Assembly (NCBI RefSeq): GCF_003991905.1
Contig: NZ_RSCL01000012.1
Span: 62,001 to 126,000 of the forward strand
Direction of reading: 5' to 3'
DNA: 64,000 nt
From: Dulcicalothrix desertica PCC 7102
GTDB taxonomy: Bacteria > Cyanobacteriota > Cyanobacteriia > Cyanobacteriales > Nostocaceae
A model generated the notes under the pieces. That model searched no databases, was not told the DNA's origin, and saw nothing but the letters and a program-made list of their open reading frames with translations. A program made the translations under genes and the position numbers. Shown one piece after another: positions 21,799 to 37,227 of the stretch; the stretch's first letter is position 1, and each line of letters opens with the position of its first letter.

Positions 21799-23802
21799 AT
21801 GTTCATAGAGCAACTTCTTGCCGCATGGTATCACATCCGTTGCGGGAGTCGTAGTGCTGGTGTTGACGGAATTACCGTTGACCTATTTGCTGCATCTGCT
21901 GACTCACAAATACAAATGATTTTGAATCAAATACAACAGCAATCTTATCATGCTAGTCCAGCCAAAGGGTTTTATGTTACCAAGAAAAACGGCGCCAAGC
22001 GATTAGTTGGTATACCGACTGTTCGAGACAGAATTGTGCAGCGTTTATTACTCGAAGAAATGTATTTACCCTTAGAAAATGCTTTTCTTGATTGTAGTTA
22101 CGCTTATCGTCCGGGACGCAGTATTCAAAAAGCTGTGCAGCATTTGTATGGGTACTATCAATCACAGCCAAAGTGGATTATCAAAGCTGATATAGCAAAC
22201 TTTTTTGACAATATTTGTCATGCTTTGCTACTTACAGTAGTAGATAATTTGAAGCTTGAACCTATTTTAATGCAATTGCTGCAAGGGCAAGTTAAAGCGG
22301 GAGTCGTGATTGGTGGGCAAACAATTTTCCAAAATAAAGGGGTATTACAGGGAGGAATACTTTCTGGGGCACTTGCAAATTTATACTTAACGTATTTTGA
22401 TCAAAAATGTCTTGACCATCGCATCAAAATGGTGCGGTATGGTGATGATTTCAGCATTGCTTGTGATACATGGAGGGAAGCAAACCAGATTTTAGATAAA
22501 GTTACTCATTGGTTGGGAGAACTTTATTTACATTTACAGACCGAGAAAACACAGATTTATGCATCTCATGAAGAATTCATATTTTTGGGACATCGCTTTG
22601 CTAATGGAAAAGTTTATGCACCTCCACCACCTGATACGAAGAGAAAGGGGGAATGGACGACAACAGAATCAGGATATCCATATTTTCGTCCAAAAGCGCG
22701 CGAGTTAAAGTTTGAATCTCGTTTTCCCAAAGCTTGCGACATTAGTAAACCCAGCAATTTACCCAAAGCTCCAACTACTCATCTTTGGCACGATTCTATG
22801 TCTACATTATACGTATCTGACCAAGGCGCCCACTTGAGCATCAAAAACCATCAGTTCCAAGTTTACTATCAAGGAGAATTACGGATTAAAATTCCTGCAA
22901 CCCGTGTCAGTAGCATTGTACTGTTTGGTTGCTGCAATGTATCACATGGCGCCGTTACTTATGCATTAAGGCGCCGGATACCAATTATATACCTTTCTCA
23001 AAAAGCTAGATATTATGGTCGGTATCAAGCAGAGAGCAATGCAAAAATTAAGTATTTAATTCAGCAGGTAATGTGTTCACAAAAACCAGAATTTATCAGA
23101 AAACAAGCTGAAAGCATTGTTTGGGCTAAATTACATAACTCGCGCGCGTTGCTGCTGAAATTAAATCGTCGTCGTCCATCCAGAAAAGCAGCTTCGGCAA
23201 TTGATTTGATTGCTAATTTGATGGATGATTTACCACAAGCTGAGTCAATAGATGCACTGCGAGGTTATGAAGGTAAAGGTGCAACATTATATTTTCAGGC
23301 ATTGGGTTCACTATTTACAGGAGTATTTGCTTTTGATAAACGTACAAAGCGTCCTCCAACAGACCCAATTAACAGCCTTATGAGTTTAGGATACACTTTG
23401 CTGAGTCAAAATATTTTCTCGTTAATACAAGCTGTTGGTTTACATGCTCATTTTGGCAACCTTCATGTACCCGATGAAAATCATCCAGCTTTGGTTAGCG
23501 ACTTAATAGAAGAATTTCGCGCGCAGTTGGTAGATTCCTTGATAGCTTATTTAATTAATTCCAAGATTTTTACACCAGAGGAATTTACACCACCTGATGA
23601 AAAAGGAGGAGTGTATCTCCAGCCTCACTCAATCAAAAAATTTCTCAAACACTGGGAAGAAAAGCTACAATCGGAGATAACACATCCCCATACAGGGTAT
23701 CAAGTAAATTTCCGACGATGTATAGAATTACAAGTATGGGAGTATGTTGCTTGTTTAATGGGAGAAATTGATGTCTATCGACCAATGGTTTGGAAACTAT
23801 AG
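21799..23802 (+). CDS. cas1: Reverse transcriptase-Cas1 fusion
   Basis: A 667-residue adaptation protein. The N-terminal reverse transcriptase (about residues 1-275) is of the group II-intron type, with the first metal aspartate D131 (KADIANFFD) and Y214-G-D-D217. The C-terminal Cas1 (about 330-667) has E491 (GYEGKGA), H556 (FGNLH) and E571 (DLIEEFR), a complete metal site. Such fusions can acquire spacers from RNA by reverse transcription before or during integration. The gene precedes leader and array 1 by 59 bases. No Cas6 domain is fused at the N-terminus, unlike some relatives. Two further GGCGCC sites within the gene suggest long residence in this host. Confidence 0.96.
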   Translation: MFIEQLLAAWYHIRCGSRSAGVDGITVDLFAASADSQIQMILNQIQQQSYHASPAKGFYVTKKNGAKRLVGIPTVRDRIVQRLLLEEMYLPLENAFLDCSYAYRPGRSIQKAVQHLYGYYQSQPKWIIKADIANFFDNICHALLLTVVDNLKLEPILMQLLQGQVKAGVVIGGQTIFQNKGVLQGGILSGALANLYLTYFDQKCLDHRIKMVRYGDDFSIACDTWREANQILDKVTHWLGELYLHLQTEKTQIYASHEEFIFLGHRFANGKVYAPPPPDTKRKGEWTTTESGYPYFRPKARELKFESRFPKACDISKPSNLPKAPTTHLWHDSMSTLYVSDQGAHLSIKNHQFQVYYQGELRIKIPATRVSSIVLFGCCNVSHGAVTYALRRRIPIIYLSQKARYYGRYQAESNAKIKYLIQQVMCSQKPEFIRKQAESIVWAKLHNSRALLLKLNRRRPSRKAASAIDLIANLMDDLPQAESIDALRGYEGKGATLYFQALGSLFTGVFAFDKRTKRPPTDPINSLMSLGYTLLSQNIFSLIQAVGLHAHFGNLHVPDENHPALVSDLIEEFRAQLVDSLIAYLINSKIFTPEEFTPPDEKGGVYLQPHSIKKFLKHWEEKLQSEITHPHTGYQVNFRRCIELQVWEYVACLMGEIDVYRPMVWKL

Positions 23803-23860
23803 TTCTTTTGCATTGGCAAAATCGACTTTTATTAGTTCAACTTATCAATAAATCCTGATT

Positions 23861-24061
23861 GATAAGCATCTGAGGGGGTCAGCTAATGCCTGAAACCCGC
23901 ATTCTCTCGTTGACCCCCTCAGATTGATTACTGCGTAAAGCTTTCAAGGTGCTAGAGTATGGAGTTATTGATAGTAATTCTTAATTATTTGGCAATAATA
24001 TTGACCCCCTCAGATAATGGCGTTTACAATGGTTACTACACAAGCCTTTCAGAAGGCTAGG
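23861..24061 (+). promoter_or_regulatory. CRISPR leader 1
   Basis: 201 nt directly before array 1, matched along its whole length by the 201 nt before array 2. It contains the 13-mer TCTGAGGGGGTCA at 23869 and its reverse complement TGACCCCCTCAGA at 23911 and 24002. The last part (GTTTACAATGGTTACTACAC...) is the best conserved and abuts the first repeat. Its position fixes transcription of the array as left to right. Confidence 0.9.
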
Positions 24062-25483
24062 GTTCGGCTTATTTAATAAGTCGCTTGATTGGAAACTTAT
24101 AGCTTCAATGGAGCTTCGTCATGCCAAACAAAGTTCGGCTTATTTAATAAGTCGCTTGATTGGAAACTGTTTTCATAGTTTTTTGGTGCTATGCACTAAT
24201 TTGATGTTCGGCTTATTTAATAAGTCGCTTGATTGGAAACTCGTTTTCATGGATTTTTTCCAGTAAACTATAAATGTTCGGCTTATTTAATAAGTCGCTT
24301 GATTGGAAACAATGATAAGTTTCTTCATTAGAAACTCCTAAATAATGAGTTCGGCTTATTTAATAAGTCGCTTGATTGGAAACTTTTAGGCCTGCACAAC
24401 AAAGGGGCAGGAGATAAAGGTTCGGCTTATTTAATAAGTCGCTTGATTGGAAACATGTTTGACTCCAGAATGTAAATTATGCAAAGAAATTGGTTCGGCT
24501 TATTTAATAAGTCGCTTGATTGGAAACACAATGATAAGTTTCTTCATGAGAAACTCCTAAACAATGTTCGGCTTATTTAATAAGTCGCTTGATTGGAAAC
24601 TGTATTCATGCTTAGATTGTTCTCTAAAGAACAATTGTTCGGTTGTTCGGCTTATTTAATAAGTCGCTTGATTGGAAACTTTCATAGTTTTATTGCGTTC
24701 ATTTAACGCAAAAGAAGTTCGGCTTATTTAATAAGTCGCTTGATTGGAAACTTGATGGAAGAAGCAGCCTTTCTAGTGATAGTAGCCATAATGGTTCGGC
24801 TTATTTAATAAGTCGCTTGATTGGAAACTTTACAAACCACTTCATAAAATGACCTCAAAAAAAGGTTCGGCTTATTTAATAAGTCGCTTGATTGGAAACT
24901 GTTGTACTCAAGGCGTAGATTTTCTAAATCGCGAAGTTCGGCTTATTTAATAAGTCGCTTGATTGGAAACTTTGTAAGCATGTTGCCTCCTTGGGCATAA
25001 AGTAAAAACAGTTCGGCTTATTTAATAAGTCGCTTGATTGGAAACAAGAGTGGGAATCAAAAGCAACAATACTTTTTTCATTGTTCGGCTTATTTAATAA
25101 GTCGCTTGATTGGAAACATTACTCAGCTTTTACTCACAATTTGACTTATAGTGAGCAAGTTCGGCTTATTTAATAAGTCGCTTGATTGGAAACAATCTTG
25201 CGCTTCTTGGTTCATAAAAAAAATCTCAACTGTTCGGCTTATTTAATAAGTCGCTTGATTGGAAACTTCGCGTACATAATTTTTCCTCCTGGAAAAATAT
25301 CGGTTCGGCTTATTTAATAAGTCGCTTGATTGGAAACAGAGTGGGTAGTTATCTTGGATAACTTTAATAAAGAGTTCGGCTTATTTAATAAGTCGCTTGA
25401 TTGGAAACAGTCGTAGGTCTTTCATAATGAAGCCATAATAAAGGAATAGTTCGGCTTATTTAATAAGTCGCTTGATTGAAAAC
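24062..25483 (+). CRISPR. CRISPR array 1 (20 repeats, 19 spacers)
   Basis: Twenty copies of a 35-nt repeat that begins GTTCGGCTTATTTAATAAG and ends TCGCTTGATTGGAAAC; starts are 24062, 24133, 24206, 24276, 24349, 24420, 24493, 24566, 24645, 24717, 24794, 24865, 24936, 25011, 25083, 25159, 25232, 25303, 25374, 25449. Only the last is altered (GATTGAAAAC), which marks the leader-distal end. Spacers are mostly 35-42 nt, with one of 44. CTTATTTAATAAG inside the repeat is palindromic, giving a crRNA hairpin, and the 5' tag would be the 8 nt ending GGAAAC. Spacers 4 and 7 are near copies. Most spacers are antisense to what look like gene starts. Confidence 0.99.
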
Positions 25484-25500
25484 TAGTACAACAAATATAT

Positions 25501-25533
25501 AAAGGGTCGAAGGTATCGTTTCGACCCTTTTTT
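25501..25533 (+). terminator. Rho-independent terminator after array 1
   Basis: Stem AAAGGGTCGA / TCGACCCTTT with a short loop and a T-run, 18 bases after the last repeat. It ends the pre-crRNA transcript before the second cas1. Bases 25534-25718 hold one GGCGCC and no gene. Confidence 0.85.
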
Positions 25534-25718
25534 GATGTGCAAAATTCAAATCATATAACCCATATACAAAGTCATATAAAAACAACTTTTACTCATACAC
25601 GGACTCATATACAGGTTTGAGACAATGAAATTAAGTCAGAAGTAAAGAGATAACGGCGCCACTAAAGCCCTATCATTCTTTTTATTTTTAACTTATATCC
25701 TTTTACCTTTTACATACT

Positions 25719-26756
25719 ATGTCTGTAATTTACCTGACCGAGAAGAAAACATCATTTAAAGTTCAACACCAGTATTTGAAGATGTTTTTTAATGGAAGAC
25801 AGCGTACCATTCGCATTCGTAATATCAGCCAATTCATTATATTCGGCGCCATTAAGTTACCGAAAGATGTCATGCAAATTATACGTCTTAATCAAATACC
25901 CGTCCTTTATCTAACAGAAAACTTGGATTTTCTAGGACGTGTCGAAAATCCATCGTCATTGCAAACTAAATACCTAACTCATCAACGTCAACGCTTGCAT
26001 GATTTTGAATTTAATCATGGGACAGCAGAAAGTATTACCTGGGCTAAATTGCACAACCAGTATACTTTTTTGCAAAGCTGGACTCCTCATCGTGTAGACT
26101 ATACAATTAAACAGGCGTTAGATTACTTAAAATTACTGATGGATAACTTGCCTGCTGCATTATCCATCCATGAACTGCGCGAATATATGGAAGAAGCTGA
26201 CAAGATTTATTATTGTGCAGTTGCTTCTATCATCAGCTTTTATAACCCATGCACGCAAACAACACTGCAACAAATTAATCAATTACTAAAATTGGGTAAT
26301 CAACTGCTGCATCAATATATATATACCCATCTTATCTCCACAGGACTTCACCCTGACTATGGGATTATACACAGTGATGCTCATCACGAGTTGCCCTTAG
26401 CATGGGACTTTAGCGCAGAATTTCGCGCACCTGTAGTTGACGACTTGGTTATAAATTTTGTCCGTAATCTTCCTAACTTGAATAGTAACGGTAACGGTAA
26501 CGGTAAAAAATGCCCTCTTAATCTAATTCAACATTTCCTTAAATGTTGGGAAGGAAAGTTAAAGACTTTTGTGCTACACCCTTGTGCAGGAGAGGTCAGT
26601 TATCGCCAGTGTATTGATATACAAGTACGCGAATACGCTGCATCTTTATTGGGTGATATTGAGTATTACCGTCCTCTAGCGTTGAAACTTCATCCACAGA
26701 ATAATGCTGTTACTAACATCGCAGAGAACCAAAAACCAGTATTAACCTTGGTGTAG
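25719..26756 (+). CDS. cas1: Second Cas1, degenerate active site
   Basis: A 345-residue Cas1-family protein without RT, homologous to the Cas1 half of the RT-Cas1 fusion. An ungapped match places LREYMEEA against LRGYEGKG, so the metal-binding Glu (E491 in the fusion) is M157 here; DFSAEFR against DLIEEFR puts A233 where E571 stands. H218 (GIIH) is kept. With two of three ligands gone, integrase activity is doubtful, although E158/E159 or E234 might substitute. The fold-defining helices and C-terminus (VREYAASLLGDIEYYRPL) are intact and the frame is open, so it is not decaying randomly. It is followed 2 bases later by cas2 and probably forms a complex with it. Confidence 0.9.
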   Translation: MSVIYLTEKKTSFKVQHQYLKMFFNGRQRTIRIRNISQFIIFGAIKLPKDVMQIIRLNQIPVLYLTENLDFLGRVENPSSLQTKYLTHQRQRLHDFEFNHGTAESITWAKLHNQYTFLQSWTPHRVDYTIKQALDYLKLLMDNLPAALSIHELREYMEEADKIYYCAVASIISFYNPCTQTTLQQINQLLKLGNQLLHQYIYTHLISTGLHPDYGIIHSDAHHELPLAWDFSAEFRAPVVDDLVINFVRNLPNLNSNGNGNGKKCPLNLIQHFLKCWEGKLKTFVLHPCAGEVSYRQCIDIQVREYAASLLGDIEYYRPLALKLHPQNNAVTNIAENQKPVLTLV

Positions 26757-26758
26757 CC

Positions 26759-27037
26759 ATGTTTTATCTAATTTGCTACGACATTGTTAGTGATACCCGT
26801 CGCAACAAGGTGTCAAAACTCTTGGAAGCTTATGGGTTGAGGGTACAAAAGTCTGTATTTGAGTGCGTCTTAGACGAAAAACAGTTTGCAACTTTATCTC
26901 AATACTTAATGCGACTTGTCAACAGACGCGAAGACCAAATCAGATTTTACCCGATGACTGTGCATAATCGTTGCAAAGTAGCTGTACTCGGCACGAAACC
27001 AGAATTTACCATTGATGATGCAGCATTTATTGTTTAG
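26759..27037 (+). CDS. cas2: Cas2 adaptation protein
   Basis: A 92-residue ferredoxin-fold protein beginning MFYLICYDIVSDTRRNKV, the typical Cas2 first strand with its aspartate, then KLLEAYGLRVQKSVFEC. The length and pattern are those of a complete Cas2, which bridges Cas1 dimers in the spacer integration complex. Its start is 2 bases from the stop of the degenerate cas1, so translation is coupled. It is the only cas2 in the window and must serve the RT-Cas1 too. Confidence 0.95.
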   Translation: MFYLICYDIVSDTRRNKVSKLLEAYGLRVQKSVFECVLDEKQFATLSQYLMRLVNRREDQIRFYPMTVHNRCKVAVLGTKPEFTIDDAAFIV

Positions 27038-27198
27038 CTGCAACCTTACATAGAATTTACACCACTCAGTATATGGTCGTTTATAAACAAGCGCGCGCTC
27101 CACCGTAGTGCTGAGAATAAGCACGCGCGTTGCTTCTACATACCCTACATCATTGCAAATAACCTGAATCGAACATTAAATACTTTTATGTAATTATC

Positions 27199-27498
27199 AT
27201 GTCCAAACCTCGCCGCATCACAACACGAGAATTAAATATAATGCAACTGTATATTGCTTGGGAATATGGAATGGCACCGCAGCAATTTTACAGCAAATGG
27301 GATGTCAGTTACGAACAAATTGCTTTAATATGTTGTCGTTCTGACTCCACAGTTAGAGGTTGGTTTAGAAGCGGTAATAATAAACGGTATCCAACTTTTA
27401 ACGATAGGCGCCATCTAGCACTTTTAGATTTCTTGCTAGAACACTTTGAAGAAATTCCTCAAGCATTGTTAGAACTTTTATATCCTTCTCAGTCCTAG
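27199..27498 (+). CDS. Helix-turn-helix-like protein near cas2
   Basis: A 99-residue protein with two short helical segments around SYEQIALICCRSDSTVRGWFRSGNN, a helix-turn-helix pattern with an Arg/Trp-Phe recognition helix. The C-terminal part is helical (LLDFLLEHFEEIPQALLELL). It resembles the repeat units of the proteins at 45.9 and 48.3 kb in having T-x3-W and a following leucine-rich helix. It may regulate the adaptation genes or be an independent plasmid gene. Confidence 0.55.
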   Translation: MSKPRRITTRELNIMQLYIAWEYGMAPQQFYSKWDVSYEQIALICCRSDSTVRGWFRSGNNKRYPTFNDRRHLALLDFLLEHFEEIPQALLELLYPSQS

Positions 27499-27544
27499 AT
27501 ATTAAATACTCACAGTGAGGAACATCCCAATTTGGAATAACCAC

Positions 27545-27615
27545 GTCATGCTGAGAAACGTAAACGCAGTTTTCCCGCAGGGTAGCATCTTAGAGAACTC
27601 GAATATTACCAAGAT
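27545..27615 (+). repeat. Interspersed repeat, copy a
   Basis: GTCATGCTGAGAAACGTAA, then about 35 bases ending in CCGCAGGGTAGCATCTTAG. A second copy is at 28180-28235. The pattern resembles widespread bacterial intergenic repeats of the 'TCATGCTGAG...AGCATCT' type. The short open frame across 27515-27730 is not supported as a gene. Confidence 0.6.
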
Positions 27616-27778
27616 TCTTTACTACGCTCAGAATGACAATTTATATTTTTGCAAAATTGGCATGCCCTCCACACATTGGCACCTCTGTCAATATCAACTT
27701 GGAATTTTTTCAGCTTTGCTTTTTGATTAACTTAGCTCTTAGTTTTGCACAGAACTACACAATTTAGGAAACTCAATC

Positions 27779-27976
27779 ATGACTTATGCTGACAAGTTAC
27801 ATCCTTGGTGTATCATCAGAACATTATCGAATTGTCAAAACCTGATGATAGCAAGATTTCGTAGTCGAGGTGAAGCGACTAATTATTTAAATGCCTTGCA
27901 AAGACTAATTCCCGATGGAACATTTACAATAATATTTGAAATGGTGAAAGAAACAACCTTTGTAGAGGACAATTAA
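27779..27976 (+). CDS. Small hypothetical protein
   Basis: A 65-residue protein with the segment HPWCIIRTLSNCQNLMIARFRSRGEA then YLNALQRLIPDG. I have the impression of a conserved cyanobacterial small-protein family with this RFRSR core, function unknown, but cannot name it. It lies between cas2 and array 2. Confidence 0.55.
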   Translation: MTYADKLHPWCIIRTLSNCQNLMIARFRSRGEATNYLNALQRLIPDGTFTIIFEMVKETTFVEDN

Positions 27977-28179
27977 ATAGCATTCTACCACTACTTCTAA
28001 AATACAAGGTTTGGTTTCGCGCAAGCATAACTTAACCTTGCATCTTTAGCATGATTCTATTTTTGCATACTGGAGGGGTGACAAAGGCGCCTGTCATCTC
28101 CAATTCGCAATTCGCAATTCGCAGTTCTCAATTATACTGCAAGCAGATAGAATCTAAACTCATGTCATACCGAGAAACT

Positions 28180-28235
28180 GTCATGCTGAGGAACGTAAAC
28201 GGAGTTTTCCCGCAGGATAGCATCTTTAGGATTTT
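28180..28235 (+). repeat. Interspersed repeat, copy b
   Basis: GTCATGCTGAGGAACGTAAA, then GGAGTTTTCCCGCAGGATAG and CATCTTT; matches copy a at 27545 with a few changes. It ends 48 bases before leader 2. The rest of 27977-28282 has one GGCGCC and triplicated AATTCGC units near 28112-28130, and no gene. Confidence 0.6.
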
Positions 28236-28282
28236 TACGTCATACACCATTGATTAGTTTCACTTATTATTTGGCTGTGACT

Positions 28283-28483
28283 GATAAGCATCTGAGGGGG
28301 TCATACAATGTCTGAAACCCTTATTCTCTCGTTGACCCCCTCAGATTGATTGCTACGTAAAAGTTTCAAGGTATTCGTGTATGGATTTATTGAGAGTAAT
28401 TATTAATAATTTCAAGATAATCTTGACCCCCTCAGATTATGGGGTTTACAATGGTTACTACACAAGCCTTTCAAAAGCTTGCC
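28283..28483 (+). promoter_or_regulatory. CRISPR leader 2
   Basis: 201 nt, the same length as leader 1 and alignable end to end, with TCTGAGGGGGTCA at 28291 and TGACCCCCTCAGA at 28333 and 28424. The distal part GTTTACAATGGTTACTACAC is identical to leader 1. Both arrays are therefore expected to be served by the same adaptation complex. Confidence 0.9.
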
Positions 28484-29382
28484 CTTCGACTTATAAAAAA
28501 AGTCGCTTGATTGGAAACTTCTACTTTCTGTTATCATGGATTGTGTCCAAAAAACGCTTCGACTTATAAAAAAAGTCGCTTGATTGGAAACACTTTATTT
28601 TCACCATTCATAAACACAATGACCTAACTTCGACTTATAAAAAAAGTCGCTTGATTGGAAACATGTTGAGGTAACAAGATTATGTTACTAAAACCAAACT
28701 TCGACTTATAAAAAAAGTCGCTTGATTGGAAACTAAAAAAACGACATTGTTACATTGTCATCAGTGATGGCTTCGACTTATAAAAAAAGTCGCTTGATTG
28801 GAAACATAATACGATCGCAATTAGTTCCATTTTCCAAACCTCCTTCGACTTATAAAAAAAGTCGCTTGATTGGAAACATTTTTTTGTGAATTTTTACACT
28901 TCCAACCCCATACTTCGACTTATAAAAAAAGTCGCTTGATTGGAAACAACAATTCTGAATTTCATAGCAGATATTCTCAAACAACTTCGACTTATAAAAA
29001 AAGTCGCTTGATTGGAAACACCATAAACAACCTCTTGCCTATTATTCAGGCGTAAAAACTTCGACTTATAAAAAAAGTCGCTTGATTGGAAACTCTCCTT
29101 GTGCCTGCTGATATAATCAGGGCATAATTAAGCTTCGACTTATAAAAAAAGTCGCTTGATTGGAAACAAAACAAGGAAAACTCTCATAAATTTTTCATGA
29201 AGTCTTCGACTTATAAAAAAAGTCGCTTGATTGGAAACTAAACAGTCATTTTTAAAGCACATGAAGTGCAAAAATGCTTCGACTTATAAAAAAAGTCGCT
29301 TGATTGGAAACTTAGCCATTATTTTTTCTCCAAGAATACAAAGTATACTTCGACTTATAAAAAAAGTCGCTTGATTGGAAGC
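28484..29382 (+). CRISPR. CRISPR array 2 (13 repeats, 12 spacers)
   Basis: Thirteen copies of a 35-nt repeat that begins CTTCGACTTATAAAAAAAG and ends TCGCTTGATTGGAAAC; starts are 28484, 28557, 28628, 28699, 28771, 28843, 28913, 28985, 29059, 29133, 29204, 29277, 29348. The last repeat ends GGAAGC. The 3' half is the same as in array 1 while the 5' half differs, but a hairpin is kept: CGACTT pairs with AAGTCG. Spacers are 35-39 nt. Eight of twelve, read antisense, contain a clear start-codon context. Confidence 0.99.
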
Positions 29383-29395
29383 TAATAAAAAATAT

Positions 29396-29430
29396 AAAAA
29401 GGGTCAAAGCTGTTGCCTCAACCCTTTTTT
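29396..29430 (+). terminator. Terminator after array 2
   Basis: Stem AAAAAGGGT / ACCCTTTTT with a T-run, 14 bases after the last repeat and equivalent in place to the one after array 1. It may also serve the convergent cmr operon in the other direction. Confidence 0.75.
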
Positions 29431-29502: not shown

Positions 29503-31224
29503 TTACTTTAATAAGTTCGCAATATCCTGTAGCTCTTGCTGCAACTGGCTATTGCCAACAAATAAGCCAAAATGTATAATAACTTTTAAAAAGTGTTTTT
29601 TGACTTCTTCTTGATAGACTGTTAAAACATCTTGATAGTTGCTATTTTGTTTAGTGCCCAATAAGTATTTTATAACCTCTTCGGCTTCTACTCCCAATAA
29701 GTTGTGCATTAATTGGTTACGATGGTCGTCTTCATATTCTCGTTCGTACTGACTTACCCATTCTAGTAAACCCCACATTAAAGGTTTAAAATTTGGTTGT
29801 AAATAACATAGCCATGCAAGCATTCCTGTGTTACTTCCAATCACGCTAAAATTACCATAATCGCCTTTATGCAGTTTTTCTAAAATCTTTTTTAATGATT
29901 CATTGTTATTGCTATTATCAGTGGGAAACTGTAGTTTACGCAGAATATTTAACTTTTCTTCTTTAATATTCTTGCTTTTATGCACTTTCATTAAATTTTT
30001 TAAGCGATTATCTGGATATTTTTTACCGTTGTAGTCAGTATCGTCAGTTACAAATCCCAGTCCTTTTTTGTTCCAAATTATTACTTCGTCGGTATTTAAT
30101 TTGACAAGTTTACCATCTATTTGTAATTGAATTTGAGGATATCTCTTGTATAATACATAAATAATTGCTGCTTTTAAGAAAGTTTCTTGAGCAGCACATA
30201 ATAAGGTAATGCCTTGTATGTAGTTCTTATTCTTAAAGAATATCTCAACTAATTCCAAAGCATCTATTATTCGCTGCATAGCTACTTGCGGTTCATACTC
30301 TTGCCCTTTAGTTAAGCTATTACTAATATTAAATACATCTACAAGCTGTGTCAGGCGCCGTTTCACACTCTCATCAATGTTATCAATACCGTCTAAAATC
30401 TCTAAAGCGGCACCTGGTAATCCGTTTAAAATAAGTTGTTTCGCTTTTTGAATTTGGAGACCTCGCCAATAGTTAGAGCTATGGATTAACTGCGAATCAT
30501 ATTTTAAATCGTAGTTTTGGTCATAATAAGGACTGCTGACTAAAAAGCTAACGTTACTGAATTTGCCTAAACTTACAAATTGTACTGCAGATGATATGGC
30601 TGGCGTGCCTGCTTGGTGGCTCACATAAACATCTTCAGCTTGATTATATTGAAGTTTGGCTAGTTCTTGACTTAAGCTTTGTTCTACTAAATATAATGTG
30701 TCGTTCCAGTTATCTATTCCTGAACTTATTTGAGTTACTGGATTAATTTGGGGGTCAATTGATGCAAATATTAGTTGCGGGTGAACAAGTTCTTTAATCT
30801 GATACTTATTCTGGATATATTTTTCTAAAATTGGCTTAAGTTCACAAGTATCTTGCCAATAGGGGGATTCTGCATAAGAATGCTTTTCAACGTCGTTAAA
30901 AATTTGTTGTTGGTCAGTTATCAAGAAAATTATTTTATCTGGATATTGAATTCCATTTCTATTAAAGTATTCAAAGAAGGTATCTAAAAGCGGGAAAGAT
31001 AAATCTTTAAATTCTGTATTTGCGACATGATTTTGATACACTAAACCCAATACTCGTGCAGGAACAGGATAAAGTTTTGTATTTTTGTCAATATTTGGCG
31101 CGTAAAATTCATCACAATTTTGAATTGGTGATTTCTCATTGACTTTTGAGTATAAACTTCCCCAATTATTATTTGAATTTAGTTGTACGTCGCTACTGCC
31201 AGTTGTAATTAACCATATTGCCAT
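29503..31224 (-). CDS. CARF-HEPN ribonuclease (Csx1/Csm6-like)
   Basis: The 573-residue product is the last gene of the cmr operon. The N-terminal part has a Rossmann-like CARF pattern: first strand AIWLITTGSSDVQL and, near residue 205, VSHQAGTPAISSAVQF, which fits the nucleotide-binding G-T/S-P turn. The C-terminal part is helical and has R502-NQLM-H507, the R-x4-H motif of HEPN RNases. Such proteins bind cyclic oligoadenylate made by Cas10 and then cut RNA. It starts 11 bases after the RAMP gene stop. The exact subfamily (Csx1, Csm6 or other CARF-HEPN) cannot be fixed by eye. Confidence 0.85.
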   Translation of the reverse strand: MAIWLITTGSSDVQLNSNNNWGSLYSKVNEKSPIQNCDEFYAPNIDKNTKLYPVPARVLGLVYQNHVANTEFKDLSFPLLDTFFEYFNRNGIQYPDKIIFLITDQQQIFNDVEKHSYAESPYWQDTCELKPILEKYIQNKYQIKELVHPQLIFASIDPQINPVTQISSGIDNWNDTLYLVEQSLSQELAKLQYNQAEDVYVSHQAGTPAISSAVQFVSLGKFSNVSFLVSSPYYDQNYDLKYDSQLIHSSNYWRGLQIQKAKQLILNGLPGAALEILDGIDNIDESVKRRLTQLVDVFNISNSLTKGQEYEPQVAMQRIIDALELVEIFFKNKNYIQGITLLCAAQETFLKAAIIYVLYKRYPQIQLQIDGKLVKLNTDEVIIWNKKGLGFVTDDTDYNGKKYPDNRLKNLMKVHKSKNIKEEKLNILRKLQFPTDNSNNNESLKKILEKLHKGDYGNFSVIGSNTGMLAWLCYLQPNFKPLMWGLLEWVSQYEREYEDDHRNQLMHNLLGVEAEEVIKYLLGTKQNSNYQDVLTVYQEEVKKHFLKVIIHFGLFVGNSQLQQELQDIANLLK

Positions 31225-31235
31225 AACTTATCTCC

Positions 31236-32918
31236 TTACCAAACTTGTGTAAAATCAGTTTCGGTCTCTAAAAATCTGATAAAATCATCTGAAAATTTTT
31301 CCCTATCTAAAGATATATCGGGGAAGATAGTTAGTAACTCAATGTAGTTTATTACTACTATCTCTCCGTTGGCATTGCTGCTGTAACAGGGGTACATACG
31401 ATGCCAGATACGTCCTGTTTTACCCATGCTACCTGTTAAACGATGGGGGTTTTTAATTGATTTACTTGGACTATAATTTTGATGGAACCAATATATCGCT
31501 TTACTTTTGTCACCTTCTGTAAAGCGTGCCCAAACTTGAACCTTGCGAGGATACCATGACTCACGCCATTTAGTTATTCCTTGTTGAGCTTGTTTATTTT
31601 CTGGTATCCATGTTTTAATTATGTTGCGAGTATTATTAATAAATTCGCGAATTTCTTTGAGTTCATTTATATTTAAACATAATGGTGTTGAACTATCTAG
31701 AAATTCCCAATGTGAACCAATTATCTGTTTCTGTTTCTTTGGTGCCTCATCGCCTTCTAGTTGTTCCGGCGCCTTATAGTATTCAGGAAAGAATTTTTGA
31801 TGGCAGATACGGCGCCAAGATTTACCAAAGCTACTAAATAACAAGCTGAATTTGATTAGACTCTCTGTAGTCTGAATTAATTTAGTTCTTGTATCGTCAT
31901 CTATTTTATCTTGAAAGCAAAAGATATTTAGCGTGCCTTGACTCAAAGTGTAAAATTGTTTGTCTGGATGCACGTTAATATCATCATCGCTAAAATCAAA
32001 GCTTGTTCCCAGTAAACCAACAGATGCTTCTTTGTTATTAAAGCCACCCCATAATTTGCTCGTAATATCTTGCGCGGTTGTTTTATCAGTCATCCCTCCT
32101 AGTAACCTAAGAGTATGTCCACGCAATGCAGCTTTAAACATGTTGCATCGAAATTCTTTCTTGCCGTTGACTAACTTGGATGTAACTCCTTGTCCTTTCA
32201 ACTCTACTTGCAGCAATGGTTGGTAATGGTTGACTCCCAAAAAATGCCCATAACCTGCACTAACTCTTGACCCAATACCTACCCCCATCGCGCGTTCCCA
32301 TACTTGCCAAATTTTATCCCATTCAAATGGTTGTAATGGTACACGACTAGAAATTCCAAATTTGAGAGTTGCTTTGTAGAGCGATATTTGGGCGTTAGCG
32401 TTAGTTTTTTGGTCTTCAATTACTTGTTTTTCGCTTTGGGAGTGGACAATATCAACCAAGCGCTTTGTCCACTTCATGTCTACTGGGTAAGCACCATGAA
32501 AACGCAGTATCCCTTGTGTGTAACTACCATCCGATAATTTTTTACCGCAGTAAAGTTCAACTTCTTCTAAGGTGCATATTTGCTTGCAAGCACGTAAAAA
32601 ACCACCTTTCATACTTGCCCCGGAGTAATAAGGAAAACCCCCTGCACCAATAATAGGACGAATTACTCCTTCATCTTGCCCACTATTGGTAACTAGGCGC
32701 CAGCTAATTTTGTAATCTCTGGTTTCAACGTTATTGCCAAACCTTGGAATAAATTCTTCTGGCGCCAATGCCATATCATCCTTATCGGGAAAAACTTTAA
32801 CCCACTCGTCCACCCATTTATATGCATCCTGGCGCCGTTTTCCCTTTTCAACACGATGAATTTGACATCGGTCTTGAATTTGCGCGCGGAACATCATTGG
32901 TACATTATCACTGCTCAC
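31236..32918 (-). CDS. Two-domain RAMP protein (Cmr6/Cmr1-like)
   Basis: A 560-residue RAMP-superfamily protein, about twice the normal length of Cmr6. The first RAMP domain has GASMKGGFLRA (about residues 98-108) and a glycine-rich loop GVGIGSRVSAGYGHF (about 215-230). A second begins near 240 with FKAALRGHTLRLLGG and GLLGTSF, which recalls Cmr1. The gene may thus be a fusion of the two end subunits of the Cmr complex, which would explain why no separate cmr1 and cmr6 are seen. It overlaps the end of cmr5 by 11 bases. Confidence 0.8.
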   Translation of the reverse strand: MSSDNVPMMFRAQIQDRCQIHRVEKGKRRQDAYKWVDEWVKVFPDKDDMALAPEEFIPRFGNNVETRDYKISWRLVTNSGQDEGVIRPIIGAGGFPYYSGASMKGGFLRACKQICTLEEVELYCGKKLSDGSYTQGILRFHGAYPVDMKWTKRLVDIVHSQSEKQVIEDQKTNANAQISLYKATLKFGISSRVPLQPFEWDKIWQVWERAMGVGIGSRVSAGYGHFLGVNHYQPLLQVELKGQGVTSKLVNGKKEFRCNMFKAALRGHTLRLLGGMTDKTTAQDITSKLWGGFNNKEASVGLLGTSFDFSDDDINVHPDKQFYTLSQGTLNIFCFQDKIDDDTRTKLIQTTESLIKFSLLFSSFGKSWRRICHQKFFPEYYKAPEQLEGDEAPKKQKQIIGSHWEFLDSSTPLCLNINELKEIREFINNTRNIIKTWIPENKQAQQGITKWRESWYPRKVQVWARFTEGDKSKAIYWFHQNYSPSKSIKNPHRLTGSMGKTGRIWHRMYPCYSSNANGEIVVINYIELLTIFPDISLDREKFSDDFIRFLETETDFTQVW

Positions 32919-33372
32919 CTTGTTTTTCCTCCTGAGAATTTTGATATCGCTGTGTCCACCAAACCAAACTGTCGCAAAGCTGAGTTAAAACACTGAGAGT
33001 AACTCTTTGATGCTCAATAGAAAAATTCTCCACATCCCAAAGTTTATCGGTCATATTCCGAATATCTTCGGTTTTAAAACTACGTACCCCGTCACGGTTC
33101 GTTATTATTGTTATTGTTTCATTAGGTACTTTTACACCTGCTTTACCCATGATATCTACTAGCGTCTTCCAAGTTTCTCGCCAAAATTCTCCTTTTTGTT
33201 GCTCTTCTTGTTTTCCCTTACTAAGCAAACGTAGGTGTTCACCCCAAAATCTTTCTAAACCATAGGCTACAGTAACCCGCATTTTATGCGATTCTTTAAG
33301 AACGCCTTTATCACGATAGTCCATGACAAGCTTTTGCGCTTCTTTATCTAATTCGTATAAATATAAAGCCAT
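32908..33372 (-). CDS. cmr5: Cmr5-type small subunit
   Basis: A 154-residue, wholly helical protein in the position of the small subunit of type III-B complexes, between cmr4 and the last RAMP gene. Helices such as KLVMDYRDKG, YGLERFWGEHLRLL and LTQLCDSLVWW fit Cmr5. Small subunits line the complex and bind the target RNA strand. It begins 2 bases after the cmr4 stop and overlaps the next gene by 11 bases. Confidence 0.75.
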   Translation of the reverse strand: MALYLYELDKEAQKLVMDYRDKGVLKESHKMRVTVAYGLERFWGEHLRLLSKGKQEEQQKGEFWRETWKTLVDIMGKAGVKVPNETITIITNRDGVRSFKTEDIRNMTDKLWDVENFSIEHQRVTLSVLTQLCDSLVWWTQRYQNSQEEKQGEQ

Positions 33373-33374
33373 AT

Positions 33375-34277
33375 TTACAACCCTTTAATTGTTAAACTAC
33401 AGTGCCCAAAACCAATAGACTCTAAACCGCCAAGATATATATCACCTTCTGTAGTACCATCAATAGGTTTCCATTGTTTATCGGTTGGCTTGATGGCAAT
33501 AGGAAATACTAAAATTGTTTTTTCTGGTAATGCTTCGACATTAAAAAAAGCTCCTCTCTTGGCTTTTTTCATATCTTCTTCTAGAGCAACTCGACTTTGA
33601 CGATATAATGCCATATCATGAATTACCGCCATGTCATTATCGTTCACAATAATTGCAGGTAGATTTTTTCGAGTAGGTAAATATGCCTCGAATTGTTCCT
33701 GTTGTTTTTCTTGCTCTTCTTCATTTTGAGGTGGGTCTATGGTAATAAATCCTAAATTAAAGAAAAGAATTTGTTTATTCGCTAAATCTTTTGTATTTGA
33801 CTGAGATTTCAAAGCATTTAAAAGATATTTGGAGCTTCGATATTCTTGCGGTGGTTCTACACTAATCTTAGCAATACGTTGATACCGCTCTAATAAACTA
33901 GGGCAACTAACCCAAACAATTGGTTGACCTGGACAAAATACTGGCAACCATACAATTGAAGCATGTTCTAATTTAATTAATGCTTCGCTTGTCCCGTCAG
34001 GTACTCCCTGTACTGCTTTTTTACCATACCAAATGTTTTCATCTAAATCTGGCGGAATTTCAATCTTATCATCTTTACTTTTTTGTACTTCCAATAATTG
34101 TCTATACTGCCGCATGTCCGCACGCAGACGACCACGAATAGAACTGCCATTGATAATGCCAGTTTGAGTAAATTGGTCACGGAAAATTAAATTTAAATTG
34201 CCGTTTTCTTCTCCCGCTGTTGCACCAATATGAACTGGCGCCAATGTTTCAATAATCCCGTATACTTGTTTATACAT
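33375..34277 (-). CDS. cmr4: Cmr4 backbone RAMP subunit
   Basis: The 300-residue Cas7-type backbone subunit. It has APVHIGA at residues 13-19, the GSSIRGRLRADM helix start (about 44-55) and the C-terminal glycine-rich loop GGLESIGFGHCSL. In Cas7-type RAMPs the target-cleaving aspartate lies five residues before the R-D pair (R33-D34 here); this position is L28, with N27 and N29 beside it, so the usual Asp appears missing. The complex may therefore not slice target RNA. The ATG directly follows the cmr3 stop with no gap. Confidence 0.9.
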   Translation of the reverse strand: MYKQVYGIIETLAPVHIGATAGEENGNLNLIFRDQFTQTGIINGSSIRGRLRADMRQYRQLLEVQKSKDDKIEIPPDLDENIWYGKKAVQGVPDGTSEALIKLEHASIVWLPVFCPGQPIVWVSCPSLLERYQRIAKISVEPPQEYRSSKYLLNALKSQSNTKDLANKQILFFNLGFITIDPPQNEEEQEKQQEQFEAYLPTRKNLPAIIVNDNDMAVIHDMALYRQSRVALEEDMKKAKRGAFFNVEALPEKTILVFPIAIKPTDKQWKPIDGTTEGDIYLGGLESIGFGHCSLTIKGL

Positions 34278-35375
34278 TTAAGCTACTCCTGATTGTAAGG
34301 ATAAATCTTCAATTTCAATAGGTAAACACAAACCACAACCCACTTGTTTCATTGGGTATCCTTCACTAGGAAACCACTCTTCATCCCATTCACACCAAGG
34401 TTTTCCTAAAGGTTTATCGAAAACATAAACAGTTCCAGGTGGAACAGCGTAACGTCCCCTTCCAAGTCTTCCTGCAAGACTGCTACGACATGGGATTGGC
34501 TTATCGGTTAATATATTTATTGGTTTGGGAAAGTCTTTGTGTTGAGGGTAACGATAAGACAAACGTGTTGAACCCCATATTCCTGGTGTAATTAAAGCAC
34601 AGTACTTTTGAATTGGTTTATTAAGTAAATCTAAAACTTCTTCTCTAGTAATTTCCAGTGTTTCAAGTTCAACTATATGATTTTCTCCACCAAAACGATG
34701 CCATCCTTTTAATTGGGGAGGTAATTCCTGAGTTGACAAATAAACTAAATGGATATTGGGTGGCATTTGCACCGCGTTTTCTAGAAATAAACCATTATTT
34801 TGTAAAGTATTACGTCGCTCATCTTCCATATGTGGGTGAAGAATAGGGATATATTTCCAAGGAGGTTTACCACAAGCTCTGGATTTCTTAATATTTGCGC
34901 TTGTCCGAGTCCAAAATGTAATTCTTTGCCAAGAATAGTCAGGCTCTAGTTTTGGTTCTATCTTTTTTTTGAATTCCCAATTTTTATTTACATCTAACCT
35001 CCACTCATTAGTTTCATCTTCCCCCATAACACGATGCCAAGGAATAGGAACATAAAATTCTTGCTCGCGTTTGGCTTCTGCCCAAAATGGTCCTGCTGTA
35101 TATAATTCATCTTTAAATTTTTGAATGATTTCCCTTTTTTGAGTCTCAGTCAAATTTTTATCTTCATTAATGTGTTGAGTATAAGCGTTAATCAATAATC
35201 CAGATAATGTTACTGCATCTGGTGGAAATTTACTCCCCGAACGTCCTACCAAATTTTCTGGTGATAAAAAGGCGCCAGAACTCCCATACATCATACCCAG
35301 TGGCTTAATTACAACCAAATATTTAAATTGAACAGGATTGATATTTTTTCTTGTGTATCTTTTAATTGAAGTCAT
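34278..35375 (-). CDS. cmr3: Cmr3 (Cas5-type) subunit
   Basis: A 365-residue RAMP. It contains MMYGSSGAFLSPENLVG (about residues 28-44) and SGLLINAY, typical of Cmr3, plus AGRLGRGRYAVPPGTVYVF near residue 300. Cmr3 caps the crRNA 5' tag next to Cas10. It lies between cmr2 (37 bases upstream) and cmr4 (adjacent). The length is normal for the family. Confidence 0.9.
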   Translation of the reverse strand: MTSIKRYTRKNINPVQFKYLVVIKPLGMMYGSSGAFLSPENLVGRSGSKFPPDAVTLSGLLINAYTQHINEDKNLTETQKREIIQKFKDELYTAGPFWAEAKREQEFYVPIPWHRVMGEDETNEWRLDVNKNWEFKKKIEPKLEPDYSWQRITFWTRTSANIKKSRACGKPPWKYIPILHPHMEDERRNTLQNNGLFLENAVQMPPNIHLVYLSTQELPPQLKGWHRFGGENHIVELETLEITREEVLDLLNKPIQKYCALITPGIWGSTRLSYRYPQHKDFPKPINILTDKPIPCRSSLAGRLGRGRYAVPPGTVYVFDKPLGKPWCEWDEEWFPSEGYPMKQVGCGLCLPIEIEDLSLQSGVA

Positions 35376-35412: not shown

Positions 35413-37227
35413 TTATTCATTGCCACCATCCCCACATAAATACCAACCAACTGTAATTAAATTTTCAATCCAATCAATCATCGCTTGAGCAGGTTTAGAA
35501 TTATTCATCGGATTATTTATACCAACTATGTAGTTTTCATGTTCTATTAAAATATCCCTTACGTTGGGAAAATATATATTAAAGAAATCTAGAAATGCGT
35601 TACGATTCTGAATAATTTTGTTTTGCTGATTAGTTGTTAAACTATTGATGTCAACTTCCCGACGATTTGGCGCCAAACCGAATGCATGGCGAACTTTTAA
35701 CTCAGCTAAATCACCATAAACATGGCTCCAATTAGGAAAATACTTATAATTACCTTCTTGAATTTCATTACTATTTTGTTGAGTTCTTCTACAATGTTCT
35801 TCCCATTTGGCTAAGGTATTACCATTTCTATCGCGATATTTTTGTAAAATGTCTAAATAATCCCAAGGACAAGTCCACTCAACATACTGCCCACTATTAA
35901 ATAAAACACGAATTGTAACCCGATTACGTTGACGTGATTTAGCGACAGCTTGCGCTTCTCTACAATGCTGCAATACATCGCGCTGCGGAACACTACCTGC
36001 TACCCAAACAAAACCAACACTAAGAGTTATATCTTGCTTGTGTTCTTCCCATTTTTTTGGTATTCCCATTAACCATTTAAATGCGTTTAAAGGTTTAATA
36101 GGCTTTGCTGGATTGCTGCTATAAATTATACCAAGAAAATCATCTCCTCCTGCGTAAATAACTCTTCCCAAATCACATTTATAGAATCCTTGTCCCCATT
36201 CGCGTAAAGCGTTTGAGAAATTCCTGATATTGCTTTCAGCATTGTCACAACCAGCAAATTCAATCAGCTTATCTCCAACTTTATCCCCATCACCCATAAA
36301 CCAACCAGTCCATTGTCCGGGAGTGTCTTTTGTTGGTTTGCGTTGAATCTCTCTAAAGCCTTGTTCTAAAGGTTGGATGCCAATTGCATCTACAATTTCG
36401 TGCCAAGTAACAAGTCTTTTTACTAATTCGGGGATACTTAACCTTTCATCGGGTGTAATAAACTTGCCCTCTGGAGTATTTAACTGCTCATTTGGCATAG
36501 TCGATTCAACTTGAGGTTTAACTTCAGGAATCACTAACTTGCCACCTTCTGCAATAAATCTACCATCTGGACTGGGTTGATTTGCATTATACTCAGTTAT
36601 TTCAGCTAATTTGATATAAAATTTTGTAATTTCTTCATCCTTGGCGCCATAGCCAAAGTCTTGAATCTCCCGTTTTTTATTTCCCAATTTTGGATAAGCG
36701 ATAGCGTCACTTCCCGTCAAGCTAGAACTTTCTCCCATCCAATTGAGTGCTGTCCAAGCACGGGACAGTTTGCGTGTTTCCAAATCCTTCATTGCAGCAG
36801 TAATTGCTTCAGATTCAGTATTACCAGTTCCACTTCCCCAAAAAAGTTCCCAAGCATGGTTTCCCCAGTTATTCCATTCTTCATGCCAATAATAAGGTTT
36901 AAATTCGGACAATTTATCTTCTATCCAAGCTTTACACTCACGCAAAATTAACTTCCATCCATCCAGAAGTGCTTTGTGAGCGTCCTTGTAACTAAAATGA
37001 CCCTTTATCAAAATGCGATTAGACATCCCCTTCTGGATATGTACCAAACCAGGAGAGATTACATTCTCAACTCCAGCAGCTTGAACTATCCGTAAACTCA
37101 GGAAAGAGAGTATATTGGAGGCGCCGAATAAATCTCTTAGCTTGCGGGACTTTTCAATTGAACCCTGTACTGGAGCATAGGTAACAACTGTATATGTGTA
37201 CTGTGGTTGCGATTGTGGTTGTTCCAC
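35413..37227 (-). CDS. cmr2: Cmr2/Cas10 with GGDD cyclase motif
   Basis: The 604-residue large subunit, first gene of the operon. GWFMGDGDKVG (about residues 305-315) and AGGDDFLGI with G360-G361-D362-D363 are the paired palm-domain motifs that bind ATP and metal for cyclic oligoadenylate synthesis. No HD-nuclease motif is seen at the N-terminus, and the protein is clearly shorter than canonical Cmr2, so DNase activity is not expected. Residues about 245-275 are a Pro/Glu-rich, partly repeated linker. Together with the CARF-HEPN gene of the same operon this predicts signalling-based immunity. It is divergent from the interrupted WYL regulator gene. Confidence 0.93.
   Translation of the reverse strand: MEQPQSQPQYTYTVVTYAPVQGSIEKSRKLRDLFGASNILSFLSLRIVQAAGVENVISPGLVHIQKGMSNRILIKGHFSYKDAHKALLDGWKLILRECKAWIEDKLSEFKPYYWHEEWNNWGNHAWELFWGSGTGNTESEAITAAMKDLETRKLSRAWTALNWMGESSSLTGSDAIAYPKLGNKKREIQDFGYGAKDEEITKFYIKLAEITEYNANQPSPDGRFIAEGGKLVIPEVKPQVESTMPNEQLNTPEGKFITPDERLSIPELVKRLVTWHEIVDAIGIQPLEQGFREIQRKPTKDTPGQWTGWFMGDGDKVGDKLIEFAGCDNAESNIRNFSNALREWGQGFYKCDLGRVIYAGGDDFLGIIYSSNPAKPIKPLNAFKWLMGIPKKWEEHKQDITLSVGFVWVAGSVPQRDVLQHCREAQAVAKSRQRNRVTIRVLFNSGQYVEWTCPWDYLDILQKYRDRNGNTLAKWEEHCRRTQQNSNEIQEGNYKYFPNWSHVYGDLAELKVRHAFGLAPNRREVDINSLTTNQQNKIIQNRNAFLDFFNIYFPNVRDILIEHENYIVGINNPMNNSKPAQAMIDWIENLITVGWYLCGDGGNE

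Follow-up and report, generated by a model that had tools for sequence, protein, structure and literature searches.

The reverse transcriptase-Cas1 (RT-Cas1) fusion of Fusicatenibacter saccharivorans (Record-seq) reportedly yields RNA-derived spacers, favouring AT-rich stretches and the ends of transcripts; to our knowledge, no start-codon enrichment is associated with it. Two described type III-B systems with RT-Cas1, those of Marinomonas mediterranea MMB-1 and Arthrospira platensis, have spacers of near 36 nt according to PMC9048733 and hardly any matchable protospacers according to PMC5513706, which for Arthrospira gives millions of spacer sequences with almost no matches. The locus described here lies in a 64,000-nt stretch of Dulcicalothrix desertica PCC 7102 (contig NZ_RSCL01000012.1, positions 62,001 to 126,000), the whole of which is called the window. 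As judged from its predicted proteins, it is a type III-B CRISPR-Cas (clustered regularly interspaced short palindromic repeats and associated proteins) locus with an RT-Cas1 adaptation module, and its two arrays hold 31 spacers that resemble those of the two systems in length and in the scarcity of matches. On the strand that a CRISPR RNA (crRNA) would bind, these spacers are enriched in sequence resembling translation start sites.

The window differs from MMB-1, for which PMC11014452 describes spacer uptake in either orientation without regional preference, in that a Shine-Dalgarno (SD) core followed by ATG is over-represented in antisense. It shares features with the type III-A system of Streptococcus thermophilus, whose spacers are described as enriched in the vicinity of start codons, for the coding strand and for hairpin-forming sequence (Zhang et al. 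2021, via PMC9048733). In that system, however, no RT is known, the enrichment was measured on newly acquired host-genome spacers and it peaks roughly 10–50 bp downstream of the start, whereas the window signal lies over the SD and the ATG (PMC9048733). Antisense orientation itself is already known for type III, for which about 65% of spacers are given as derived from the coding strand (PMC8482600). In the literature searched, which did not cover the primary RT-Cas1 acquisition papers, no natural RT-Cas1 array was found to be described as enriched in SD sequences or start codons; a term search of the main text of PMC5513706 found none of the terms start codon, antisense and ribosome. Where RT-Cas1 spacers come from is an open problem, and a repertoire that reveals its target class by sequence would offer a way, with no need of a protospacer, to learn where RT-Cas1 systems sample and what renders a type III crRNA effective.

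Start-site-like sequence in the spacers

The direction of the crRNAs, left to right as a first-pass annotation of the window had proposed, is backed by the leaders, which lie left of both arrays and are alike (279-nt stretches including the first repeat, 82% identical), by the degenerate last repeat at the right end of each array, by hairpins with T-runs directly right of both arrays and by the GGAAAC repeat end. The target strand was accordingly defined as the reverse complement of the spacer, i.e. the strand bound by a crRNA, and a strict SD+ATG as GGAG, GAGG or AGGA located 3–9 nt before an ATG. On the target strand, a strict SD+ATG is present in eight of the 31 spacers (spacers 4, 7, 11, 13 and 17 of array 1, hereafter A1_4, A1_7, A1_11, A1_13 and A1_17, and A2_5, A2_8 and A2_12 of array 2), and on the spacer strand in only one, A1_1. 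The mean in 2000 dinucleotide-preserving shuffles of the spacers was 0.56, and none of the shuffles reached eight. The signal is present in both arrays (5/19 in array 1, 0/2000 shuffles; 3/12 in array 2, 7/2000 shuffles), and the spacers concerned are scattered along them. In the first-pass annotation, which suggested the comparison with shuffled spacers, seven of these eight had already been singled out for SD-spaced starts, A2_8 being the addition.

The weaker measures point in the same direction. An ATG with a frame open to the end of the spacer occurs on the target strand of 22 spacers and on the other strand of 11 (shuffle mean 12.8; 0/2000 reach 22); the earlier count of 13 of 19 for array 1 holds, and that for array 2 is 9 rather than 8 of 12. 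An ATG alone, regarded there as weak evidence, was found in 25 target strands and 17 other strands, with 17.4 expected by shuffling (4/2000). SD cores at any position number 10 on the target strand and 5 on the other, so that the excess noted earlier is present but twofold, not threefold. A2_3, described as an exception in sense orientation, does have GAGG on the spacer strand, but 10 nt before the ATG, and counts only when the spacing is widened, giving 8 versus 2. Whichever of 10 combinations of core and spacing was used, the target strand scored in 8 or 9 spacers and the other strand in 1 or 2 (p from 8e-7 to 5e-5 against relatives). These p-values are post hoc because the SD+ATG test was chosen after the pattern had been seen; the relatives, the host's other arrays and a phage-trained matrix served as separate comparisons.

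For the comparison with relatives, genomes at class and family level and genome contigs were searched for RT-Cas1, and the arrays were made non-redundant by script. The resulting set contains 78 arrays with 1,211 spacers besides the window (15 spacers of one locus, L081, were dropped as duplicates of L043), oriented by repeat end and not by individual leaders; some of these arrays lie near RT-Cas1 without adjoining it, and at a few loci (L055, L056 and L061 among them) the Cas1 is a sister protein with no RT in the stretch seen. An SD+ATG was found on the target strand of 35/1,211 spacers (2.9%) and on the other strand of 25; before the removal of duplicates, the count was 36/1,226, against a shuffle mean of 33. 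The frequency in the window is significantly higher than in all relatives (Fisher p = 5e-6), in AT-matched relatives (10/373; p = 1e-5) and in the host's other, non-RT arrays, i.e. 10 arrays near four other Cas1 genes (5/127; p = 6e-4), to which the enrichment does not extend. When the 49 arrays of 10 or more spacers were ranked, those of the window took the first two places (26 and 25%), followed by one with 13%. Since relatives lack the enrichment, it does not follow generally from RT-Cas1 acquisition, and the enzyme family alone is not its cause. As far as sampled, the enrichment appears to belong to this strain. Within the relatives, spacers 2 and 5 of one array (L051, at 13282) overlap by 30 nt on opposite strands, representing the same site in both orientations.

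Phage genes provided a further yardstick. Random sense 37-mers carry an SD+ATG at rates of 2.3% in Nodularia phage genes and 3.3% in T4 genes, at which the probability of eight or more is 4e-7 and 6e-6, respectively. A start-site matrix was trained on 100 ATG starts from T4 and a Nodularia phage. Scores of at least 2 were obtained for 26% of the window targets (8/31), 0% of the window's other strands (0/31), 2.2% of the relatives' targets and 3.6% of shuffled targets; the reference values are 6% for random sense 37-mers and 65% for the training starts, which is optimistic because the matrix was scored on those starts themselves. These data statistically support an enrichment of the window spacers for sequence of the antisense start-site type.

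A1_4 (24311–24348) and A1_7 (24528–24565) correspond to the same site, with two mismatches (94% identity over 36 nt) and a 2-nt offset, so that either one site or two related invaders were sampled twice. This resampling, a single pair, points to a preferred site over random sampling. When the two are counted once, the enrichment persists (7/30 versus 35/1,211; p = 3.5e-5).

Stem-loops and strand bias

Perfect stems of at least 7 bp were identified in 7/31 window spacers, A1_4 and A1_7 among them, compared with 0.59 by shuffling (0/1000); the idea of this test also arose from reading the spacers. Stems of at least 6 bp are present in 188/1,158 spacers of RT-Cas1 relatives (shuffle 75) and in 85/1,068 spacers of non-RT arrays in RT-Cas1-bearing genomes, where they are slightly raised too (shuffle 63). 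In smaller groups, the numbers were 11/80 for a separate clade with an RT nearby (shuffle 5.1) and 7/78 for sister Cas1 loci in which no RT was found (shuffle 4.5). After length matching, RT-Cas1 arrays still exceed non-RT arrays, both for stems of at least 6 bp (181/1,119 versus 79/1,007; p = 4e-9, in all four G+C classes) and for stems of at least 7 bp (66 versus 28; p = 5e-4), and the mean stem is above shuffles in 47/55 RT-Cas1 arrays and 28/39 others (p = 0.007).

When the non-RT arrays were divided by repeat end, stems of at least 6 bp were found in 23/167 spacers of GGAAAC arrays, 54/704 of TGAAAC arrays and 8/197 of others, array type being assigned by repeat end and Cas1 neighbourhood and not by full effector annotation. 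The GGAAAC group, in which four of six loci contain a large GGDD protein, differs from the rest (p = 0.005) but not from the RT-Cas1 arrays (23/167 versus 188/1,158; p = 0.50). The RT was therefore rejected as the cause of the excess, being inseparable from type III as its source. The stem-loop excess probably belongs to type III generally, in line with the account of S. thermophilus type III-A in PMC9048733, and an excess over non-type-III arrays, as reported for type III-A adaptation, was found here. It provides another rule of spacer choice for type III arrays that can be tested. Overall, such stems are about twice as frequent in RT-Cas1 and other GGAAAC-repeat arrays as in other arrays of RT-Cas1-bearing genomes.

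The two signals in the window overlap only in part: A1_4, A1_7 and A1_17 have stems of 7–8 bp with the ATG or the SD core in the loop, but in the other five SD+ATG spacers (A1_11, A1_13, A2_5, A2_8 and A2_12) no stem exceeds 4 bp. Hairpins are not centred within spacers beyond the level of shuffles. Capture of terminators was considered and rejected: of the relatives' 188 stem spacers, 5 have a T-run after the stem on the target strand alone and 19 on the spacer strand alone, and the window has 0/8. The T-runs of the relatives thus lie mainly on the spacer strand (19 versus 5), opposite to the general antisense bias. The A1_8 target (24601–24644) contains a palindrome with an 8-bp stem before an ATG, and similar stretches (81–100%) occur in several family genomes, which suggests a common operator.

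The antisense side is expected for type III, and in the relatives a bias towards it is suggested by the target strand being the purine-rich one in 636 spacers versus 456 (p = 6e-8) and having more open frames in 401 versus 304 (p = 3e-4).

Possible origins of the start-site signal

As a tentative explanation, which we put first among the possible causes, ahead of selection and of passive capture of regulatory hairpins in that order, an unusually large share of the spacers may derive from initiation regions of genes that are AT-rich and probably foreign, and be stored such that the crRNA pairs with the SD and AUG of the message. In its favour stand the SD+ATG excess over the other strand, shuffles, relatives, the host's other arrays and phage genes, the matrix scores, the double sampling of the A1_4/A1_7 site, the stem-loop excess and a match of A1_17 in viral contigs (below). 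The source would be mRNA or DNA of phage-like elements, of which the adaptation module may preferentially take up AU-rich, structured stretches, leading to over-sampling of initiation regions; antisense orientation would be fixed or reinforced because the Cmr complex can use only crRNAs that pair with transcripts.

Several results weigh against this explanation. The sample consists of 31 spacers only, relatives with roughly 50–80% identical RT-Cas1 show no SD+ATG enrichment in their 78 arrays, and the Marinomonas system has no regional preference as described in PMC11014452. The target-strand bias for purines (14 versus 15) and for open frames (11 versus 9) is nil in the window. At higher matrix thresholds, the window scores fall to 2/31 (at least 4; training starts 39%, random sense 1.8%) and 1/31 (at least 6; training starts 15%, random sense 0.4%), the training values again being optimistic. 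A mixture estimate would place one third of the spacers over a start at a threshold of 2, one eighth at 4 and one fifth at 6, and motif counts, with 35/58 T4 ATG starts as yardstick, would give four tenths or more. The share is therefore poorly fixed, with estimates from an eighth to a half, although it is above background on each measure.

In addition, searches of phages, plasmids and viral contigs yielded no protospacer and no start site was confirmed by annotation, so that the term start site refers to the form of the sequence. A blastn search of both arrays (E up to 1) gave no match in 50,697 phage records. In 72,556 plasmids, array 2 had no match and array 1 had three short ones, at E 0.4. 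Pieces of nine spacers were also sought in viral contigs by eight pattern scans, one pattern serving for both A1_4 and A1_7, which yielded three loci and no protospacer. The only one of four 20-mers that matched, that of A1_17, coincides in two contigs with the SD and start of an open reading frame (251 and 93 aa) with different flanks. A peptide match of A1_16 in another viral contig (L167) is gene-internal with different upstream sequence and was dismissed as chance. Matches of array 1 in 217 family genomes were short and near chance, in a non-exhaustive search that scored two candidates per genome.

The antisense start-site enrichment noted in the first-pass annotation stands on statistical grounds; the two causes put forward there, uptake of mRNA 5' ends and selection for crRNAs that cover initiation regions, are hypothetical. 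Capture of exact 5' ends is not favoured because the ATG lies at many distances, 1 to 35, from the 5' end of the target and because the A1_4 target reads through a TAATG overlap of the kind found at operon-internal starts; by eye, the terminal bases have no evident purine preference. An RNA phage was likewise rejected as source, since the SD+ATG targets, save A1_4/A1_7, seem to be different start sites and would exceed one small genome. Selection would act on random uptake if only crRNAs directed at initiation regions, which are early, accessible and ribosome-competing, protected well enough to be retained. The antisense bias of type III has been attributed at least partly to such selection (in PMC8482600 and PMC9048733), and the scatter of SD+ATG spacers along both arrays agrees with it; this alternative is nevertheless doubtful, the 78 related arrays, presumably under similar selection, lacking the enrichment. 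It is also unlikely that structured regulatory nucleic acid (hairpins, operators or attenuators) was captured, as DNA or RNA, and that start sites came with it owing to the location of regulatory hairpins immediately before genes. The stem-loop excess in the window, and in RT-Cas1 relatives over non-RT arrays, would fit, as would the three of eight SD+ATG spacers with an ATG or SD core in a loop and the preference for hairpins and for regions just downstream of start codons reported for S. thermophilus type III-A adaptation (PMC9048733), but relatives have the hairpin excess without the SD+ATG excess, and in the remaining five SD+ATG spacers the stems reach only 4 bp.

That a striking pattern arose by chance in an AT-rich spacer set, as one of many possible, is quite improbable: the spacers number only 31 and the pattern was picked after reading the sequence, but a p of about 1e-5 against AT-matched relatives leaves about 1e-3 after correction for 100 tries, the phage-trained matrix and the strand asymmetry agree, and the window arrays head the ranking of 49. 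Most improbable of all is self-directed regulation, in which the spacers would serve as antisense regulators of the host's own genes; apart from the resemblance of the SD+ATG targets to regulatory design, nothing speaks for it, and 25–32-nt cores of 6/31 spacers (A1_4, A1_7, A1_13, A1_17, A2_5 and A2_12) match only the array copies in the own genome at up to three mismatches. A further and improbable reading is that in this strain RT-Cas1 samples initiation-competent mRNA, e.g. fragments from 30S landing sites, and that the crRNA-protein complex partly blocks translation initiation by occupying the SD and AUG. If so, the arrays would be a catalogue of foreign start codons, and a block of translation initiation would add to RNA cleavage and cyclic-oligonucleotide signalling.

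Organization of the locus

The CRISPR-Cas locus is located in an 11.4-Mb genome. RT-Cas1, the first leader and array 1 with its terminator are followed by a second Cas1, Cas2, the second leader and array 2 with a terminator-like hairpin, beyond which Csx1, Cmr6, Cmr5, Cmr4, Cmr3 and Cas10b are encoded on the opposite strand:

21799..23802, + strand, RT-Cas1 fusion, 667 aa (RVT_1 61–267, Cas1 337–621, YGDD RT motif; Pfam, NCBIfam, PADLOC)
23828..24061, + strand, leader of array 1 (three copies of a TGACCCCCTCAGAT-type motif; 82% versus the second leader)
24062..25483, + strand, CRISPR array 1 (20 repeats of 35 nt, 19 spacers)
25501..25530, + strand, intrinsic terminator closing array 1
25719..26756, + strand, second Cas1, 345 aa (non-Glu at the position of RT-Cas1 E491; Pfam and alignment)
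26759..27037, + strand, Cas2 (Pfam)
28250..28483, + strand, leader of array 2 (similarity to the first leader)
28484..29382, + strand, CRISPR array 2 (13 repeats of 35 nt, 12 spacers)
29396..29429, + strand, terminator-like hairpin closing array 2
29503..31224, − strand, Csx1-type CARF-HEPN signalling effector (PADLOC)
31236..32918, − strand, Cmr6 (PADLOC)
32908..33372, − strand, Cmr5 (PADLOC)
33375..34277, − strand, Cmr4 (Pfam and PADLOC)
34278..35375, − strand, Cmr3 (Pfam and PADLOC)
35413..37227, − strand, Cas10b/Cmr2 (GGDD in the translation; Pfam, NCBIfam, PADLOC)

The predicted RT domain is N-terminal to Cas1 in one protein, accompanied by Cas2 and an array, as in RT-Cas1 adaptation modules. 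The type III-B assignment is based on the PADLOC calls for Cas10b, Cmr3, Cmr4, Cmr5, Cmr6 and Csx1; PADLOC made no call for Cmr1 among the ten proteins searched. All 31 exact genomic copies of the 15-nt repeat end fall in the two window arrays. Each leader contains three copies of the TGACCCCCTCAGAT-type motif (23868–24015 and 28290–28440), the first of which is inverted relative to the other two.

The relatives of RT-Cas1 are cyanobacterial, the closest named ones including Rhizonema, Fischerella, Calothrix and Nostoc. At the RT motif (residue 214 in the window), [YF]GDD is present in 43/43 aligned RT-Cas1 sequences, window included, unlike the YADD motif of group II intron RTs. Relatives of the second Cas1 with more than 40% identity were found in 29/71 partly redundant loci screened. 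In 22/23 distinct sequences, Glu is missing at the position of RT-Cas1 E491 and mostly replaced by Ser, with an adjoining Glu in many, and the second Cas1 is possibly an inactive partner of RT-Cas1.

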